Shown: one piece after another, positions 3,996 through 57,452 of the stretch
Position numbering within the stretch: position 1 is the stretch's first letter
How the letters are laid out: each line of letters opens with the position of its first letter
Source of the DNA: Pseudoalteromonas nigrifaciens
GTDB lineage: Bacteria; Pseudomonadota; Gammaproteobacteria; Enterobacterales; Alteromonadaceae
Assembly (NCBI RefSeq): GCF_002221505.1
Contig: NZ_CP011037.1
Span: 62,001 to 126,000, forward strand
DNA length: 64,000 nt
Direction: 5' to 3'
Position numbers and translations under genes: made by a program
The notes under the pieces: generated by a model
The model's database searches: none
What the model was told of the DNA's origin: nothing
Seen by the model: the letters and a program-made list of their open reading frames with translations, nothing else

Positions 3996-4192
3996 TAACC
4001 TGAACTTTGGATAATAAATCTATCTCAAGCAGCTACTTTCAGCGCTAACTGCGTTGAATTTACTTGCAATAGGCCAGCTATTGACGCGTAAATTCGCCTT
4101 GTTTTCACTGAAAATCTCTGGCTAGAGAAAATAAATTTAAATATAACTATGATTTAGTATGTTAGTAAATCTCTTAACCAGAGGTCAGGTTA
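3996..4192. repeat. MITE-like 197-bp repeat, copy 1
   Basis: The ends are inverted repeats: TAACCTGAACTTTGG on the left and CCAGAGGTCAGGTTA on the right. The interior (AATAGGCCAGCTATTGACGC and the segment around it) recurs at 10077-10273, 10751-10949 and, inverted, 25768-25955. No coding capacity. The right arm contains a run CTCTTAACCAGAG that pairs with itself. It behaves as a non-autonomous palindromic element; the mobilising enzyme is not in this window. Confidence 0.8.
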
Positions 4193-10750: not shown

Positions 10751-10949
10751 TTAACCTGATCTCCGGATAATAAACTTATCTCAAGCAGCTATTTTCAGCG
10801 CTAACTGCGTTGAATTTACTTGCAATAGGCCAGCTATTGACGCGTAAATTCGCCTTGTTTTCACTGAAAACCTCTGGCTAGAGAAAATAAAATTAAATAT
10901 AAATATGATTCAATACGTTAGTAAATCTCTTAACCAGAGTTCAGGTTAA
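10751..10949. repeat. MITE-like repeat, copy 3
   Basis: TTAACCTGATCTCCGG at the left and CCAGAGTTCAGGTTAA at the right, with an interior almost identical to copy 1. TTAA stands at both outer edges, which fits a target duplication or ends that include TTAA. Confidence 0.8.
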
Positions 10950-25737: not shown

Positions 25738-25769
25738 AATTATTGTCTACCGATAGGTAGGCAATAATT
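25738..25769. terminator. hairpin after the heme operon
   Basis: AATTATTG-TCTACC-GATA-GGTAGG-CAATAATT gives a 14-bp stem (one mismatch). The T-run is missing, so termination is probable but not certain. It touches the edge of MITE-like copy 4. Confidence 0.5.
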
Positions 25770-25955
25770 AACCGGAACTCTGGTTAAGAGATTTATTAAC
25801 GTATTGAATCATACTTATATTTAAATTTATTTTCTCTAGCCAGAGGCTTTTAGCGAGTTTACGCGTCAATAGCTGGCCTATTGCAAGTAAATTCAACGCA
25901 GTTAGCGTTGTAAATAGCTACTTGAGATAGTTTTGTTATCCAAAGCTTAGGTTAA
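25768..25955. repeat. MITE-like repeat, copy 4 (inverted)
   Basis: TTAACCGGAACTCTGG at the left and CCAAAGCTTAGGTTAA at the right, with the interior of copy 1 in reverse complement (GCGTCAATAGCTGGCCTATT). It sits between the heme operon and the diguanylate cyclase pseudogene. Confidence 0.8.
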
Positions 25956-26063
25956 TTAGTACTTCACATTATTAAAGTTGGTTAGATTCTTGGTTTTAAA
26001 GCAGGTAGTATAAAATGTATTGAATATATTATGCATGCAAGTTGTACGTGAGGTATAGACAGA

Positions 26064-28727: not shown

Positions 28728-28887
28728 GGGCCGCAGCTAGAAAGAAAGTATGTAATCTATAAATCTCCATTTCGATGTTGTATAAGTAATACTTGTAGTA
28801 CCGTCCTGAAGTTTTTAAAGTACCATCTCATTTTTTGCTATACCCGCTCATATGAGCATATTTTTATTTTTATATCAGGATATTACA

Positions 28888-29097
28888 ATGTCAAACATCG
28901 TATCAGGTACAGTTAAGTGGTTTAACGAGTCTAAAGGTTTTGGTTTCATCGAGCAAGAAAATGGCCCAGACGTTTTCGCACATTTCTCAGCAATCAAAAG
29001 CGAAGGTTTCAAAACTTTAGCTGAAGGCCAACGTGTAGAGTTCACTCTTTCACAAGGTCAAAAAGGTCCACAAGCTGATAACATCACAGCTGTATAA
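28888..29097 (+). CDS. cold-shock protein, CspA family
   Basis: 69 aa from the ATG at 28888, chosen for the AGGATATTACA ribosome site; upstream in-frame ATG has none. Both RNA-binding motifs are present: KGFGFIEQ (RNP1) and VFAHFSAI (RNP2). A single OB-fold nucleic-acid chaperone. The long leader suggests post-transcriptional control by temperature, as known for cspA. Confidence 0.95.
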
Positions 29098-29118
29098 TTT
29101 TACTTTTTAAGTAAAATG

Positions 29119-29145
29119 AAAAAAAGCGCTTAAGGCGCTTTTTTT
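29119..29145 (+). terminator. terminator of the cold-shock gene
   Basis: AAAAAGCGC-TTAAG-GCGCTTTTTTT, 22 bp after the stop codon. Confidence 0.9.
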
Positions 29146-29229
29146 GTGCCTAAAATTTGGTATTCCTCGGTAACTCCCCCCACAGTATTGTATTTCAACG
29201 TATTAAACTTAACTAGCCAAGCTTCGCTA

Positions 29230-29413: not shown

Positions 29414-29449
29414 AGATACCATCTCTCATTTTATGCTTCAAGATCGTAT

Positions 29450-30433
29450 TTAACTTTCTTGAAGCTTAAACGCTTCTTGATTCTTTACTACGCCAAAACA
29501 TATATGAATGAGTTTACGCATATTGGCACCAATGATTTGCATCGATGTTTTGCCATGATTCATCAATCTTATTTTTTGCTGTTTTATTTGATAATTCCAC
29601 TGCCCAGCGACTACTGCTGCCATATAAAGCTTACTTCGTATTCTCGAGGGCCCTAGCTTACTTAAAGTTGTACGGCCCTTCATTTTCCCTGACTCATGCA
29701 ACTTCGGTATTAAGCCACAGTAAGCTGCTGCCTGCTTAGCTTGGTTGAATTTTTTAGCTGCGAATATATACGTGAGCTCTCGAGACATAACGGGCCCAAT
29801 ACCGGGGATTGTTTCTAGTAACGCTCTATCTTTTTTTAAATTAGGGAAGCTGTCTATGTGATTATCGATATCTAATTTAAGTTTTTTTATCTCATCATCA
29901 AAAAAATTAATCGTTTCTTTTAATGATTGAATAACTCGCTCCGACGCCGCATTAAACTCACTTGCTTCTAATCGATTATGCTCCCTTTGCTTGCTGGATT
30001 CTAATGCATCAAGTCGGCGCAGTAATGCCTTAAGCTCTCTAATTTCTTTTGCTTCAGGTTGCCAATAGTTAACAATTGAATGCTTTGCATAACCATAGCT
30101 TGCAAGCATTATCGCATCTGACTTATCTGTTTTATGAACAATATTTAGAGCCTCGGCATATTTCTTTGCTTTGCCTGGATTAGCGAGCACAATATTGAAT
30201 CCTTGCTGGTATAAAAAGTACATCAGCGGTTCATGGTAAACACCCGTTGGCTCTACCGTGATAACGACCTCCTCAGCTACAGCTTGGGTTGTACTTAAAA
30301 GCCACTGCTCAATATCTTTGAAAGATAGCTGGTTGTTTTTAAATACTTTCGTTTTCTTTTTGTTGGTAGTTGGATCTCTCAGCCAGCATAAATCTACTTT
30401 ATCCTTACTAATATCAAAACCGATAAACATCAT
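29450..30433 (-). CDS. IS110-family DEDD transposase/recombinase, copy 1
   Basis: 327 aa. The N-terminal DEDD (RuvC-like) domain shows IGFDISKDKVD, VEPTGVYHE, and HKTDKSDA; the C-terminal Tnp_20 domain has IPGIGPVMSRELTYIFAA and the serine-bearing region GRTTLSKLGPSRIRSKLYM. These enzymes recombine DNA under direction of a bridge RNA encoded in the element, as shown for IS621. No frameshift; probably active. Roughly three quarters identical by eye to copy 2 at 53625. Confidence 0.95.
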   Translation of the reverse strand: MMFIGFDISKDKVDLCWLRDPTTNKKKTKVFKNNQLSFKDIEQWLLSTTQAVAEEVVITVEPTGVYHEPLMYFLYQQGFNIVLANPGKAKKYAEALNIVHKTDKSDAIMLASYGYAKHSIVNYWQPEAKEIRELKALLRRLDALESSKQREHNRLEASEFNAASERVIQSLKETINFFDDEIKKLKLDIDNHIDSFPNLKKDRALLETIPGIGPVMSRELTYIFAAKKFNQAKQAAAYCGLIPKLHESGKMKGRTTLSKLGPSRIRSKLYMAAVVAGQWNYQIKQQKIRLMNHGKTSMQIIGANMRKLIHICFGVVKNQEAFKLQES

Positions 30434-30435
30434 CT

Positions 30436-30616
30436 CTACTTACTCCCCTTGTACATACAGCATCAACTTAATTTAAGTGTGCTTGGATACCATTCAGTTT
30501 GTTGAGAATTGGACGCTAGGGCTTAATCTACATCTCAGTATCGAGTACTGGGCGGGAATACAAGCTCACTAGCATCCGATGTAATAAATGATAGCTAATC
30601 ATCTATTACTGAGAGA
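30436..30616 (-). ncRNA. candidate bridge RNA of IS110 copy 1
   Basis: Left-end segment before the transposase. On the minus strand it has a 5' hairpin (10-bp arms around TTAGCTA), then a stem made by TGCTAG/CTAGCG and GCTT/AAGC that encloses an inner hairpin CAGTA-TCGAG-TACTG-type. One loop strand reads TCCCGCC like the left target; the other carries GTAG, complementary to CTAC of the target right side. A second loop holds ATGGTATC, equal to the element's right end, and TACAAG, complementary to its left end. The exact RNA ends are not known. Confidence 0.7.
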
Positions 30617-30621
30617 TACAA

Positions 30622-30642
30622 GGCGGGAGTTTACCTCGCGCT
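30622..30642. repeat. dispersed motif GGCGGGAGTTTACCTCGC (IS110 target)
   Basis: This intergenic motif recurs, with small changes, at about 30997-31018, 43235-43257, 45796-45818, 46148-46160 (partial), 53376-53396, 56447-56469, 58745-58765 and 60297-60319. Copy 1 of IS110 is inserted at its GTAG/GCGGG junction. Confidence 0.75.
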
Positions 30643-40664: not shown

Positions 40665-40801
40665 AAAAAATATACCTTTTTTAACTTACATGGCGAAGGG
40701 GGATATACACAGTGACCTTGGTTACCCGACAGCCAACTTTTTAAGCCCTTCACATTACATTACGTCGCTTATTTTAAAAGCGATCATTTTTATTATTTAA
40801 A

Positions 40802-41275
40802 ATGCGCGGCATAAAGCCCCAGCAACACAATTTTCACAAATAGAAGACAAAGAGAAGGCAATGAGAGTATATTTATTTTTCACACCACCCACAGCGCTTT
40901 CACCCTCTAAAAGCGCAGCGCCTCATAGTCTCTTTGTGAATAGGTTTTTTAATTTTAAATGCGCGGCATAAAGCCCTGCCTACAAAAATGGCACATAGAG
41001 AAGATAATGAGAGTAAATGAGTAGAGCAGTTCCATTTTATCCGCAGTTCGAAACTTACAGCTCTTTTCACCCTCTAAAAGCGCAGCGCCTCATAGTCTCT
41101 TTGTGAATAGGTTTTTTAATTTAAAATGCGCGGCATAAAGCCCCGCCTACAAAAGATTGCACATAGAGTAGGCAGCAAGAGTAAATGAGTAGAGCAGTTC
41201 CATTTTATCCGCAGTTCGAAACTTACAGCTCTTTTCACCCTCTAAAGCGCAGCGCCTCATAGCCTCTTTGTGAGT
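40802..41275. repeat. three tandem copies of an about 160-bp repeat
   Basis: Units start with ATGCGCGGCATAAAGCCC at 40802, 40959 and 41126 (periods 157 and 167). Each ends with a block CTAAAAGCGCAGCGCCTCAT and TCTCTTTGTGAATAGG. Units 2 and 3 share GTAAATGAGTAGAGCAGTTC, which unit 1 lacks. A single remnant of the terminal block is found at 61505-61536. No coding frame. Placed between IS66 and the ABC-F terminator. Confidence 0.85.
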
Positions 41276-45901: not shown

Positions 45902-46112
45902 ATCGCGTTGGCGATGGCAACCAAAGAGAGGCTGCCGCCGACCTCTCTCTGGACTCTCTCGGCGCGCCCGAGGATCACACTTGATCTTCAACATCGTTAA
46001 TGATGTGAACGTAATCAGCGTAGATAGGCCATCCATGGCCAAGCTACGCTTTTTACAGCATCCATGCTGTAAATTACTCATCATTAACTCAGTTTCAGCT
46101 GTGATCACGGGG
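45902..46112 (-). repeat. structured repeat R1 (inverted orientation)
   Basis: Reverse-complement copy of the multi-hairpin repeat seen at 52722, 53129 and 56497. Read on the minus strand: outer arm CACGGGG-side / CCCGAGG-side with GATCACA, hairpin ACAGCATGGATGCTGT, hairpin GCGTAG...GGCCATGGATGGCC...CTACGC, then CCAGAGAGAGG/CCTCTCTTTGG and ATCGC-CAAC-GCGAT. The last two stems differ in sequence from the other copies but still pair. R1 lies between the HNH-S24 gene and the ASCH group. Confidence 0.85.
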
Positions 46113-46305
46113 AGATGGAGTGTCTGATAGATTGGTGTTTATGAAGTTAGGCGGGAGTTTAGGTCTCATATTTAGATAGTCTTGTTTGTAGACTCAAAGG
46201 TTTTATTCCTTATAGATTGTTTAGGAGTTATTTCCTTAGTAAATTACTTGTGAGGAAGTATTATATTGTCAGCATAAACTTTGATTACAATTATTGGAGA
46301 AAGTC

Positions 46306-52622: not shown

Positions 52623-52974
52623 TAAAACCACTCCCTGTTTGCGAACATTCAGTTTACTAAAAAATGCAATGTAAACAAGCATTAACTCATTGTTGAACTA
52701 AAGGCAGCTGCTAAGACAACTCCCCGTGATCACACCTGAAATTGAATTAATGATGAGTAATTTACAGCATGGATGCTGTTAAAAAGCGTAGCTAGGCCAC
52801 GGATGGCCTATCTACGCTGGTTACGTTCATATCATTAATTACAATTGAGGAAACAGTGTGATCCTCGGGGCGCTGTGAGATTCCAAAGAGAGGCCGGCGT
52901 TTGCCTTTCTTTGGTTGCCGTCGCCAACGCGACATATAACTAATATTTGCAATTAAAAAATCGTATCATGATTT
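52567..52974. repeat. tandem duplication unit A (helicase 5' end plus R2)
   Basis: The 5' end and leader of the helicase gene and the following R2 repeat are duplicated just downstream as 52975-53340. The second unit keeps TTACTTGCGTAATTAACTGC and the leader GTTTGCGAACATTCAG almost unchanged. The unit length is about 408 bp. The helicase open frame does not continue in the second unit. Confidence 0.8.
52722..52935 (+). repeat. structured repeat R2
   Basis: Arms visible: outer CCCCGTGATCACAC with GTGTGATCCTCGGGG (52857-52870); AATTGAATTAATGAT with ATCATTAATTACAATT; hairpin ACAGCATGGATGCTGT (52764-52779); hairpin GCGTAG-C-TAGGCCA-CGGA-TGGCCTA-T-CTACGC (52786-52817); hairpin CCAAAGAGAGGC...GCCTTTCTTTGG; hairpin GTCGC-CAAC-GCGAC. 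The result is a branched structure with two hairpins on a closing stem followed by two more hairpins. Confidence 0.88.
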
Positions 52975-53128
52975 AAATTTTGTTCAATTACTTGCGTAAT
53001 TAACTGCTCGTAAATACCAATCTGCTGCATTAAAGCCACTCCCTGTTTGCGAACATTCAGTTTACTAAAAAATGCAATGTAAACAAGCATTAACTCATTG
53101 TTGAACTAAAGGCTGGTGCTAAGACAAC

Positions 53129-53340
53129 ACCCCGTGATCACACCAGAAATTGAATTAATGATGAGTAATAGCTGCGCATGGATGCGCGATAAAGCGTAGC
53201 TTGGCCATGGATGGCCTATCTACGCTGATTACGTTCATATCATTAATTACAATTGAAGAAACAGTGTGATCCTCGGGGCGCTGTGAGATTCCAAAGAGAG
53301 ACCAGCGTTTGCCTTTCTTTGGGTGCCGTCGCCAACGCGA
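53129..53340 (+). repeat. structured repeat R3
   Basis: Same plan as R2 but hairpin 1 is GCGCAT-GG-ATGCGC instead of ACAGCAT-GG-ATGCTGT, both arms changed together. In hairpin 2 one pair is lost (TTGGCCA opposite TGGCCTA). It belongs to the second unit of the tandem duplication and is followed by the dispersed motif and IS110 copy 2. Confidence 0.88.
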
Positions 53341-53400: not shown

Positions 53401-53440
53401 CAAAAGTTGCGCTTTTGGTGTCAGCAAACTTAACGCCTTG

Positions 53441-53620
53441 TATCTCTCATTGATAAATGATTAGCTATCATTTATCACATCGAAGTCAGTGAGCTTGCCT
53501 TTACGCCTAGTATTTAATACTGCTCGGTAGATAAAGCCCTGACTTTCTATTCTCACAAACTGAATGGTATCCAAGCACACTTTTATTTAAGTAGATGCTG
53601 TATGTACAAGGGGAGTAAGT
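53441..53620 (+). ncRNA. candidate bridge RNA of IS110 copy 2
   Basis: 5' hairpin TGATAAATGA-TTAGCTA-TCATTTATCA (53451-53477). Target-loop stem AGTCAG (53484-53489) with CTGACT (53539-53544) and GCTT with AAGC. Inside: loop strand CTTTACGCCT (53499-53508), inner hairpin AGTA-TTTAA-TACT, and GGTAG (53526-53530). Donor loop: ATGGTATC (53564-53571), identical to the right end 54636-54643, and TACAAG (53605-53610), complementary to CTTGTA at the left junction. Ends of the RNA are not mapped. Confidence 0.75.
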
Positions 53621-53624
53621 AGAG

Positions 53625-54608: not shown

Positions 54609-54785
54609 ATACGACCTTGAAGCTTAAAATGAGAGATGGTATCTACAAAATTACTTTTACTTTTACTATTGCGCTAAAGCACGACTTACCAATTCCCCTA
54701 AACTATCTGTTTCTATTTTATATCCAATCCCTTATATTCACTCTAGGAGCATAAAGGAAGAAAGCACTCAATTTAAGGATAAATA

Positions 54786-56496: not shown

Positions 56497-56769
56497 CCCC
56501 GTGATCACACCAGAAATTGAATTAATGATGAGTAATAGCTGCGCATGGCGGAATTTTGTTCCCGACAAATTCCAAGTACCTAAATCCCTTTAGGCAATGC
56601 GCGATAAAGCGTAGCTTGGCCACGGATGGCCTATCTACGCTGATTACGTTCATATCATTAATTACAATTGAGGAGATAGTGTGATCCTCGGGGCGCCGTG
56701 TGGTTCCAAGGGGCGGTCGGCGCTTTAACTTGGTAAAGAGCGCCCCTTGGTTGCCGTCGCCAACGCGAC
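56497..56769 (+). repeat. structured repeat R4 (enlarged)
   Basis: Same outer arms as R2/R3. Hairpin 1 keeps GCGCAT...ATGCGC but its tip is enlarged by two new hairpins, GGAATTT...AAATTCC and CCTAAA-TCC-TTTAGG. The third hairpin has a different sequence from the other copies, CCAAGGGGCG paired with CGCCCCTTGG. The final hairpin GTCGC-CAAC-GCGAC is unchanged. Confidence 0.88.
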
Positions 56770-56780
56770 TTTTTCTTTAG

Positions 56781-57452
56781 TTATTTAGATTGTTTATTAA
56801 TTTCTTCAACAGTTCTAATTACAGCTTTTTTTAAAGCGCTGCGCATAACTTCGTTAGTTAATTGATCTAATAATGTTTTATGGAGAACTCCCATACCTTC
56901 ATTATTGGCCATAGTTGCATCAAATAATTCACGTGTAATTAATTCTTCCCCTAGCTTATTTACTAATGAAAGTGAAAAAGAAACATTTCTATTGCAGTCT
57001 AAAGTCCATGCACCATGACAATTAACATCAAAACTCATAAGGTCTGCAGAAATTAACATTTCTACTTGATTATTTATTGCGATATTACTTAATAGCTTCG
57101 CATCACTAGATGCAGGTATTATGTCAATCTTTTTTGCATTTACACCTAAAGATTGAAGCTCATTAATAAAGGCATTTCTTATAAAGTCAGCAACTCTTAC
57201 AAATTCCTGTCCATCACTTGTCATGCCGATTGTTGCAGGGCCCATCCGCATAACTGCTTTTTCTGCTAATTCATCTTTAACAGTGGCAAGGTTTCTTTTA
57301 TCTCTCCATTGGGTTACACCAATAGAGTCGATATTTTTAACCTCAACATTTTCAATTGTTTTTTTATGGTATTCCACAGGGAATGAGTTTTGTATAGTAC
57401 AACCAGATAAAATGGATAAGAAAGCGGCAGTTATAGTGAGTTTCTTTAACAT
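56781..57452 (-). CDS. lipoprotein of unknown function
   Basis: 223 aa from the ATG at 57452, which starts a lipoprotein signal with lipobox LSGC (MLKKLTITAAFLSILSGC). The mature domain has VKNIDSIGVTQWRDKRNLA, a helical middle with FVRVADFIRNAFINELQSLGV and a strand-rich end. The pattern, short strands around a helical FIxNAFxxEL segment, is like several outer-membrane-associated lipoproteins (YajG-type), but I cannot assign a family. It begins 12 bp after R4 and is convergent with nothing; the NERD gene follows upstream. Confidence 0.7.
   Translation of the reverse strand: MLKKLTITAAFLSILSGCTIQNSFPVEYHKKTIENVEVKNIDSIGVTQWRDKRNLATVKDELAEKAVMRMGPATIGMTSDGQEFVRVADFIRNAFINELQSLGVNAKKIDIIPASSDAKLLSNIAINNQVEMLISADLMSFDVNCHGAWTLDCNRNVSFSLSLVNKLGEELITRELFDATMANNEGMGVLHKTLLDQLTNEVMRSALKKAVIRTVEEINKQSK

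Follow-up and report, generated by a model that had tools for sequence, protein, structure and literature searches.

An IS621-type bridge RNA very likely encoded in the left end of an IS110-group element of Pseudoalteromonas

The bridge-RNA mechanism was first described in 2024. Its IS621 version includes handshake pairing (PMC11208158), and IS492 of Pseudoalteromonas atlantica, a circle-forming IS110-family element, has been grouped with IS621 (PMC11187229). Two papers give the IS110 group a subterminal inverted repeat of 2–3 bp, or else none or a short imperfect one (PMC11208160, PMC11187229). For the IS1111 group, which uses a seekRNA, they give a repeat of 7–17 bp (PMC11208160) and terminal extensions of 7 + 3, occasionally 6 + 3, bases (PMC11187229). 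Insertion of the IS110 family into REP palindromes is already known: ISPpu9 and ISPpu10 sit in them with a 2-bp repeat (PMC1525189), and GTAG, the complement of CTAC, heads many such palindromes (PMC2817692).

We analysed a window of 64,000 nucleotides, meaning the whole stretch of DNA under study. It contains an IS110-group (IS621-like) element of Pseudoalteromonas, here called copy 2, whose left end is at 53437–53624. We put the probability that this segment encodes an IS621-type bridge RNA at about 0.95, and the RNA is very likely functional or recently so. As far as sequence can tell, copy 2 is a well-supported further example of the bridge-RNA mechanism. Together with the empty sites and a series of near-identical elements, it tests the model cleanly in nature, in a marine bacterium. 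The bridge RNA itself is ordinary as a kind; the part that merits specialist attention is the long, co-varying inverted repeat beside the donor. The anatomy, pairing, covariation and empty sites reported below come from the sequence and its comparison with relatives.

Copy 2 resembles IS621 in its recombinase domains and catalytic residues, CT core and left-end RNA (PMC11208160, PMC11208158), and also in the order of the left and right target and donor guides (LTG-RTG-LDG-RDG), the split 9-base RDG, the first handshake base, the junction promoter and the CTAC target end. It differs in protein sequence (35% identity) and in its guides; moreover, the IS621 copy L078 has four contiguous repeat pairs where copy 2 has a 10-bp repeat, and the -10 box lies inside the left end of IS621 but spans the core in copy 2. 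With the IS1111 group, known here by description only, copy 2 shares a long subterminal repeat with 10 bases between the arms across the circle junction (PMC11187229). Its RNA, however, is in the left end, upstream of the recombinase gene, and not in a long non-coding region downstream of it, and its bottom-strand guide precedes the top-strand guide, which is the order of the IS110 family (PMC11187229). Two further likenesses rest on published descriptions: IS492 comes from the same genus, and ISPpu9 and ISPpu10 belong to the same family but to another host.

The element, its empty sites and its recombinase

The flanks of copy 2 meet at one CT in the empty site of Pseudoalteromonas sp. HL-AS2 (NZ_CP133572.1), a near-identical strain that lacks both copies of the window; this site reads CTTAACGC-CT-ACAAAATTAC. 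BLAST pieces of HL-AS2 against the window overlap on the two core bases, 53437–53438 and 54643–54644. Both copy 2 and a second element in the window, copy 1, are scarless insertions at a CT core common to target and donor. Identity to HL-AS2 is 99.85% along the right flank of copy 2 and 97.9% along the left, so that the insertion is probably recent. The element combines a long non-coding left end of 186 bases, which holds the RNA, with a short right end of 34 bases.

The 327-residue recombinase scores above the cut-off for both PF01548 and PF02371, and its residues D7, E61, D103, D106 and S248 align with D11, E60, D102, D105 and S241 of IS621. Its one relative in the same genome at E up to 0.001 is the recombinase of copy 1 (29450–30433), 75% identical. 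Because the genome holds this copy 1 and no second copy of the element itself, the comparison of flanks was made on relatives.

Copy 1 carries guides of its own (Table 1). The HL-AS2 site empty of copy 1 reads CTCCCGC-CT-GC, i.e. AACTCCCGC CT GCTTTCGC, and target position t10 is G in this empty site and A in the filled one; the guide U could still pair. Two neighbours of the locus were seen in passing: an IS21 element in HL-AS2 near the empty copy 1 site, and in the window a cspA thermoregulator (RF01766) at 28778–29148, close to copy 1, with a score of 78.5 against a gathering score of 78.

Table 1. Features of copy 2 and copy 1, in window coordinates (t, target position).
Feature	Coordinates	Strand	Basis
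Left target t1-t7 TTAACGC, host flank	53430..53436	+	HL-AS2 empty site
Left CT core	53437..53438	+	junctions vs empty site
Left arm, subterminal inverted repeat ATCTCTCATT	53442..53451	+	10 bp complementary to 54628-54637; co-varies in relatives
5' hairpin of putative bridge RNA	53451..53477	+	folds; outside consensus structure
Covariance-model match	53480..53618	+	model trained without window copies; 113.9 bits, E 7e-26
Left target guide TTTACGCCT	53500..53508	+	shuffled-target scan; relatives' flanks
Right target guide GTAG, pairs with top strand CTAC, t8-t11	53527..53530	+	relatives' comparison
Putative target-loop handshake guide AT, complement of AT at donor bases 6-7	53531..53532	+	sequence; position as in PMC11208158
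Left donor guide ATGGTATC, 8/8 with donor 1-8	53564..53571	+	relatives' comparison
Right donor guide ATGTACAAG, pairs with CTTGTAT, two bases skipped	53602..53610	+	relatives' comparison
Probable Shine-Dalgarno AAGGGGAG of recombinase	53608..53615	+	sequence; ends 9 bases before ATG
Donor-loop handshake guide GG; first base pairs with t7	53611..53612	+	first base 25/27, second base no signal
IS110 recombinase, 327 aa	53625..54608	+	PF01548, PF02371; 35% identity to IS621; residues
-35 box TTGAAG of predicted circle promoter, spacer 17	54617..54622	+	in silico
Right arm, subterminal inverted repeat AATGAGAGAT	54628..54637	+	complementarity; relatives
Right end, donor bases 1-7 ATGGTAT	54636..54642	+	relatives' comparison
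-10 box TATCTT across circle junction (predicted)	TAT 54640-54642 + CTT 53437-53439	+	in silico
Right CT core; host right target ACAAAA next	54643..54644	+	junctions vs empty site
Copy 1, recombinase 75% identical to copy 2, own guides	29414..30622	-	sequence; model match
Copy 1 left target guide TTCCCGCCC	30550-30558	-	sequence
Copy 1 right target guide GTAG	within 30526-30532	-	sequence
Copy 1 left donor guide	30486-30493	-	sequence
Copy 1 right donor guide	30448-30456	-	sequence

Anatomy and fold of the predicted RNA

The earlier note had read a bridge RNA with its guides from the letters of copy 2, and its sequence statements all hold. The 5' hairpin with 10-bp arms around TTAGCTA is present (TGATAAATGA-TTAGCTA-TCATTTATCA, 53451–53477), as is the target-loop stem AGTCAG/CTGACT plus GCTT/AAGC. 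CTTTACGCCT (53499–53508) agrees with the target's left side CTTAACGCCT at 9 of 10 bases, GTAG (53527–53530) is complementary to CTAC, ATGGTATC (53564–53571) is identical to the element's right end, and CT is found in both junctions. TACAAG (53605–53610) does complement the left junction CTTGTA, and comparison with IS621 extends this right donor guide to the 9-mer ATGTACAAG (53602–53610). A second correction concerns the start of the segment 53437–53624: 53437–53438 is the shared core, and the predicted circle promoter would start the RNA a few bases inside. The left target guide TTTACGCCT pairs with the bottom strand of target positions 1–9 with one mismatch, at t3, which is a true one (U against A); the C at 53499 may extend it.

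Thermodynamic folding and a covariance-model search, both proposed in that note, agree with a structured RNA. The single-sequence fold of the left end is modestly better than shuffles, with z -2.2 for 53437–53624 (4 of 200 shuffles as good). In the full-length fold the right donor guide is occupied by the 5' CUUGUAU; refolding from 53447 gives z -2.1. Two stem-loops with internal loops accompany the 5' hairpin, the latter found by folding and helix search only. The consensus fold of 28 left ends comprises 23 pairs, 20 of them with compensatory (double) changes, and 89.3% of cells pair, versus 67.6% with shuffled partners and 35–42% with slid partners.

Neither window copy was in the training set of the covariance model, which was built from 25 relatives. 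It places matches in the window at 30440–30578 (121.8 bits) and, in the left end of copy 2, at 53480–53618 (113.9 bits), both with E below 1e-25; the next window matches reach 7.0 and 5.7 bits (E 3.2 and 6.7). No third match with E of 10 or less came from the 4.27-Mb genome, where 150 of the 449 first-look candidates were scored, and Rfam at gathering score lists no family over 53437–53624.

Guides and flanks across relatives

Taken alone, the copy 2 sequence is weak proof of guide function, and the proof comes from relatives. Its best left-target match, 7 of 8 bases, lies in the correct loop and is equalled by 6.8% of shuffled targets (p 0.068). Such a non-significant match would suit a reading in which the left end does no more than lead the recombinase mRNA and the junction matches reflect chance or shared descent. 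The segment does lie directly 5' of the gene and holds a probable ribosome site, and in ISPpu9 a 5' UTR fold over the ribosome site limits translation (PMC8450116). The flanks of relatives, which follow their own loops in 27 clusters and again inside near-identical elements, make this leader-only reading very improbable: right-guide and handshake bases co-vary with their targets, and chance is excluded across relatives. The roles of mRNA leader and bridge RNA are in any case compatible. The probable ribosome site AAGGGGAG (53608–53615) overlaps the end of the right donor guide, the donor-loop handshake guide and a donor-loop stem, and with this overlap folding or binding of the bridge RNA may limit recombinase translation, akin to the inhibitory fold of ISPpu9.

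Relatives were sought in 108 genus, 395 family, 394 order and 369 class genomes (partly overlapping), in plasmid records and in contig collections; two-copy alignment scans gave three loci in the genome collections and one in the viral set. Six of 45 recombinase loci (L009, L055, L057, L058, L068 and L075, with L058, L068 and L075 at contig ends) were left out before guide counts, and five plasmid loci (L078, L079, L080, L082 and L083) raised the remaining 39 to 44. L081, with no left end seen, and L045 (25% identity) were unused, and L043 duplicates L003. Clusters, drawn by eye from recombinase kinship, supplied 27 representatives; the permutation tests ignore kinship between elements. For L083 the right-guide anchor was moved one base by hand. 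In these counts the left-guide offset was the best of four, likewise for permuted flanks.

In a position-blind scan, 37 of 39 left ends had their top match to their own left target on the 5' side of the target loop; L062 and L064 were the exceptions. Outside the main counts, the target loops of L057 and L068 match their own flanks at 8/8 and 7/8 bases, and re-checking L055, L058, L075 and L009 revealed no left junction. L055 (genome G155) has an open recombinase frame and a right end without a recognisable left junction; its genome has other IS110 copies, on whose RNA it may depend.

The guides pair with target and donor alike, on both strands and over the core. Summed over the 27 representatives, left target guide and own flank agree at 175 of 189 bases, versus 99.3 (sd 5.3) with swapped flanks, and 0 of 5000 permutations reached the observed count; over all 44 elements they agree at 277 of 308. 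This tracking, together with that inside 11 near-identical elements, supports the earlier note's proposal of an IS621-like bridge RNA with these guides. The right target guide pairs at all of t8–t11 in each of the 24 representatives with a right flank. Where the target departs from CTAC, to CTGA (L067, L071, L083) or CTCA (L082), the guide has changed in step. Positions t10, t11 and t12 co-vary with this guide; extension beyond t12 is not significant (t13 p 0.149, t14 p 0.099). Donor pairing offers two natural changes, in L070 and L083, both matched by the guide.

The first donor-loop handshake base complements t7, a base of the non-cognate DNA, in 25 of 27 representatives (permuted mean 18.2, 0/5000), and all four pairings (G with C, C with G, T with A and A with T) are represented. 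Two representatives fail: L048 has G facing G, and L082 has G facing T. The second handshake base, at position 6, gives no covariation signal (4/27 versus a permuted mean of 8.0). Poor fits occur in L044 (5/8), in L062, L067 and L077 (5/7 flank bases each) and in L048, with core bases and right donor guide mismatched, and 8 of 27 representatives lack a match at the core T of the left target guide.

Near-identical elements are informative on a finer scale: a few bases separate their guides, which for the most part agree with their own flanks. Among nine of them, 4 of 9 left-guide bases vary versus 12 of the 179 remaining left-end bases (Fisher p 0.0035). In 11, own flanks match at 74 of 88 bases versus 64.5 when permuted (p 5e-5, optimistic because some rows share guide and target: L004, L008 and L063; L088 and L089); L044 reaches only 5/8.

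CTAC is the right target in 20 of 24 representatives, and a hairpin at p 0.05 or better is found in 12 of 27 left flanks versus 1 of 27 control stretches. Both counts would fit a protein that recognises REP-like hairpins ending in CTAC, the loop being a copy of flank sequence that pairs with nothing as RNA. We consider this even less probable than a leader-only left end, since right-guide and handshake bases are complementary to the flank, not copied from it, and mismatches are biased to RNA-wobble types. The 30 mismatches in 37 distinct guide/target pairs include 14 that are wobble-capable, i.e. a guide U where the target has C or a guide G where it has A, both still able to pair with the bottom strand (expected 17.9%, p 2.8e-4), versus 3 of the mirror-image types; the IS621 structure holds one such wobble pair (PMC11208158). 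Moreover, no hairpin is significant in the left flanks of the non-CTAC elements L067, L071, L082 and L083 (p 0.34–0.67), and these elements still pair at t8–t11 and at 5, 6, 6 and 7 of 7 left bases. The window copies themselves give p 0.050 (copy 1) and a non-significant p 0.26 (copy 2) for a flank hairpin.

CTTWACGCCTAC with up to one mismatch has 54 sites in the own genome versus 15 for the reversed control. The idea that this genome is full of the target repeat was rejected: by eye, most of the 30 CTTWACGCCTAC contexts listed are ordinary-looking sequence and not one repeat. The REP-like AGCNNNRCGYCTAC occurs in 10 copies there (control 1), in 31, 58, 51 and 58 copies in genomes G005, G016, G068 and G1195 (controls 2, 1, 0 and 0) and in 10 and 5 copies in two single records (controls 0). 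A guide tuned to the commonest repeat of the host was also considered and dropped, because the matches listed did not include the guide in its exact REP form. Elsewhere in the window, a repeat block at 40788–41246 has a spacing of 157–168 bp, and two of its units carry GCCTACAAAA, similar to the IS110 target end.

The circle junction: predicted promoter and inverted repeat

Transcription, binding and catalysis, as we infer them, would run as follows. The element would be excised as a circle, and joining of the right end to the left would complete a sigma-70-like promoter (TTGAAG, 17 bases, TATCTT). This promoter would transcribe the left end into the 5' hairpin, the target loop and the donor loop. 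The donor loop would pair with the element's own junction (LDG ATGGTATC, RDG ATGTACAAG) and the target loop with both strands of the host site (LTG TTTACGCCT, RTG GTAG), and the DEDD/serine recombinase would join donor and target at CT without a scar.

Junctions could be counted in 38 of the 44 elements, the right end being unusable in six (L044, L054, L062, L063, L074 and L076). In silico, the promoter rebuilt across the junction of copy 2 agrees with 8 of 12 consensus bases, and its -10 box spans the CT core. This box begins three bases before the core in 29 of 38 junctions, both window copies included, and lies inside the left end in 8, IS621 among them; L083 fits neither register. The evidence for the promoter is its conserved position, since scores are modest (8–9 of 12). 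The integrated left end of copy 2 reaches a match of 6/12, and the transcript might be weak in the integrated state because the best predicted match lies across the junction.

The same junction of copy 2 reads AATGAGAGAT GGTATCTTGT ATCTCTCATT, a perfect 10-bp inverted repeat with 10 bases between the arms. This length departs from the short, imperfect or absent repeat described for the IS110 group and falls within the IS1111 range; we take it as not excluding IS110-group membership, given the domains, the core and the RNA position. The 38 junctions comprise 26 distinct end pairs, of which 14 have at least 7 contiguous pairs counted from the inside, or 15 with L077 (9 from pair 2 on); 11 have fewer, including those of Enterobacterales and Acinetobacter. 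Covariation is significant at pairs 3, 5 and 8, whose observed counts were reached by 0 of 2000 shuffles, and at pairs 4 (p 0.004), 6 (p 0.0035) and 7 (p 0.03); at pairs 1, 2, 9 and 10 it is not significant among the 26 end pairs. From pair 3 on, the repeat falls outside the 14 donor bases that the RNA reads. No comparable dyad is seen in target flanks, where a single position of 10 is below p 0.05 (p 0.024).

We tentatively propose, at somewhat below an even chance, that the donor junction of this IS110 branch is read twice: 14 bases by the RNA and the outer 7–10 bp dyad by the protein. If so, the enzyme could use the dyad to distinguish donor from target, and the two groups, IS110 and IS1111, would have a single end architecture in common, as dyad length and arm spacing match the description of IS1111 despite the RNA being in the left end. 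Donor recognition would then perhaps not be by RNA alone, which bears on recombinase engineering and on the relationship of IS110 to IS1111.

Other repeats and RNAs lie in the window. TwoAYGGAY RNA (RF01731) occurs at 45957–46122 (-), 52712–52878 (+) and 53120–53286 (+), the only three copies found in the genome. A tandem duplication of 408 bp, immediately upstream of copy 2, contains two of them, and part of this repeat has a relative, 68% identical, at 56606–56782. Finally, a repeat of ~200 bp is present at 3996–4192, 10752–10948 and 25764–25956 in two direct copies and one inverted copy, 86–93% alike.
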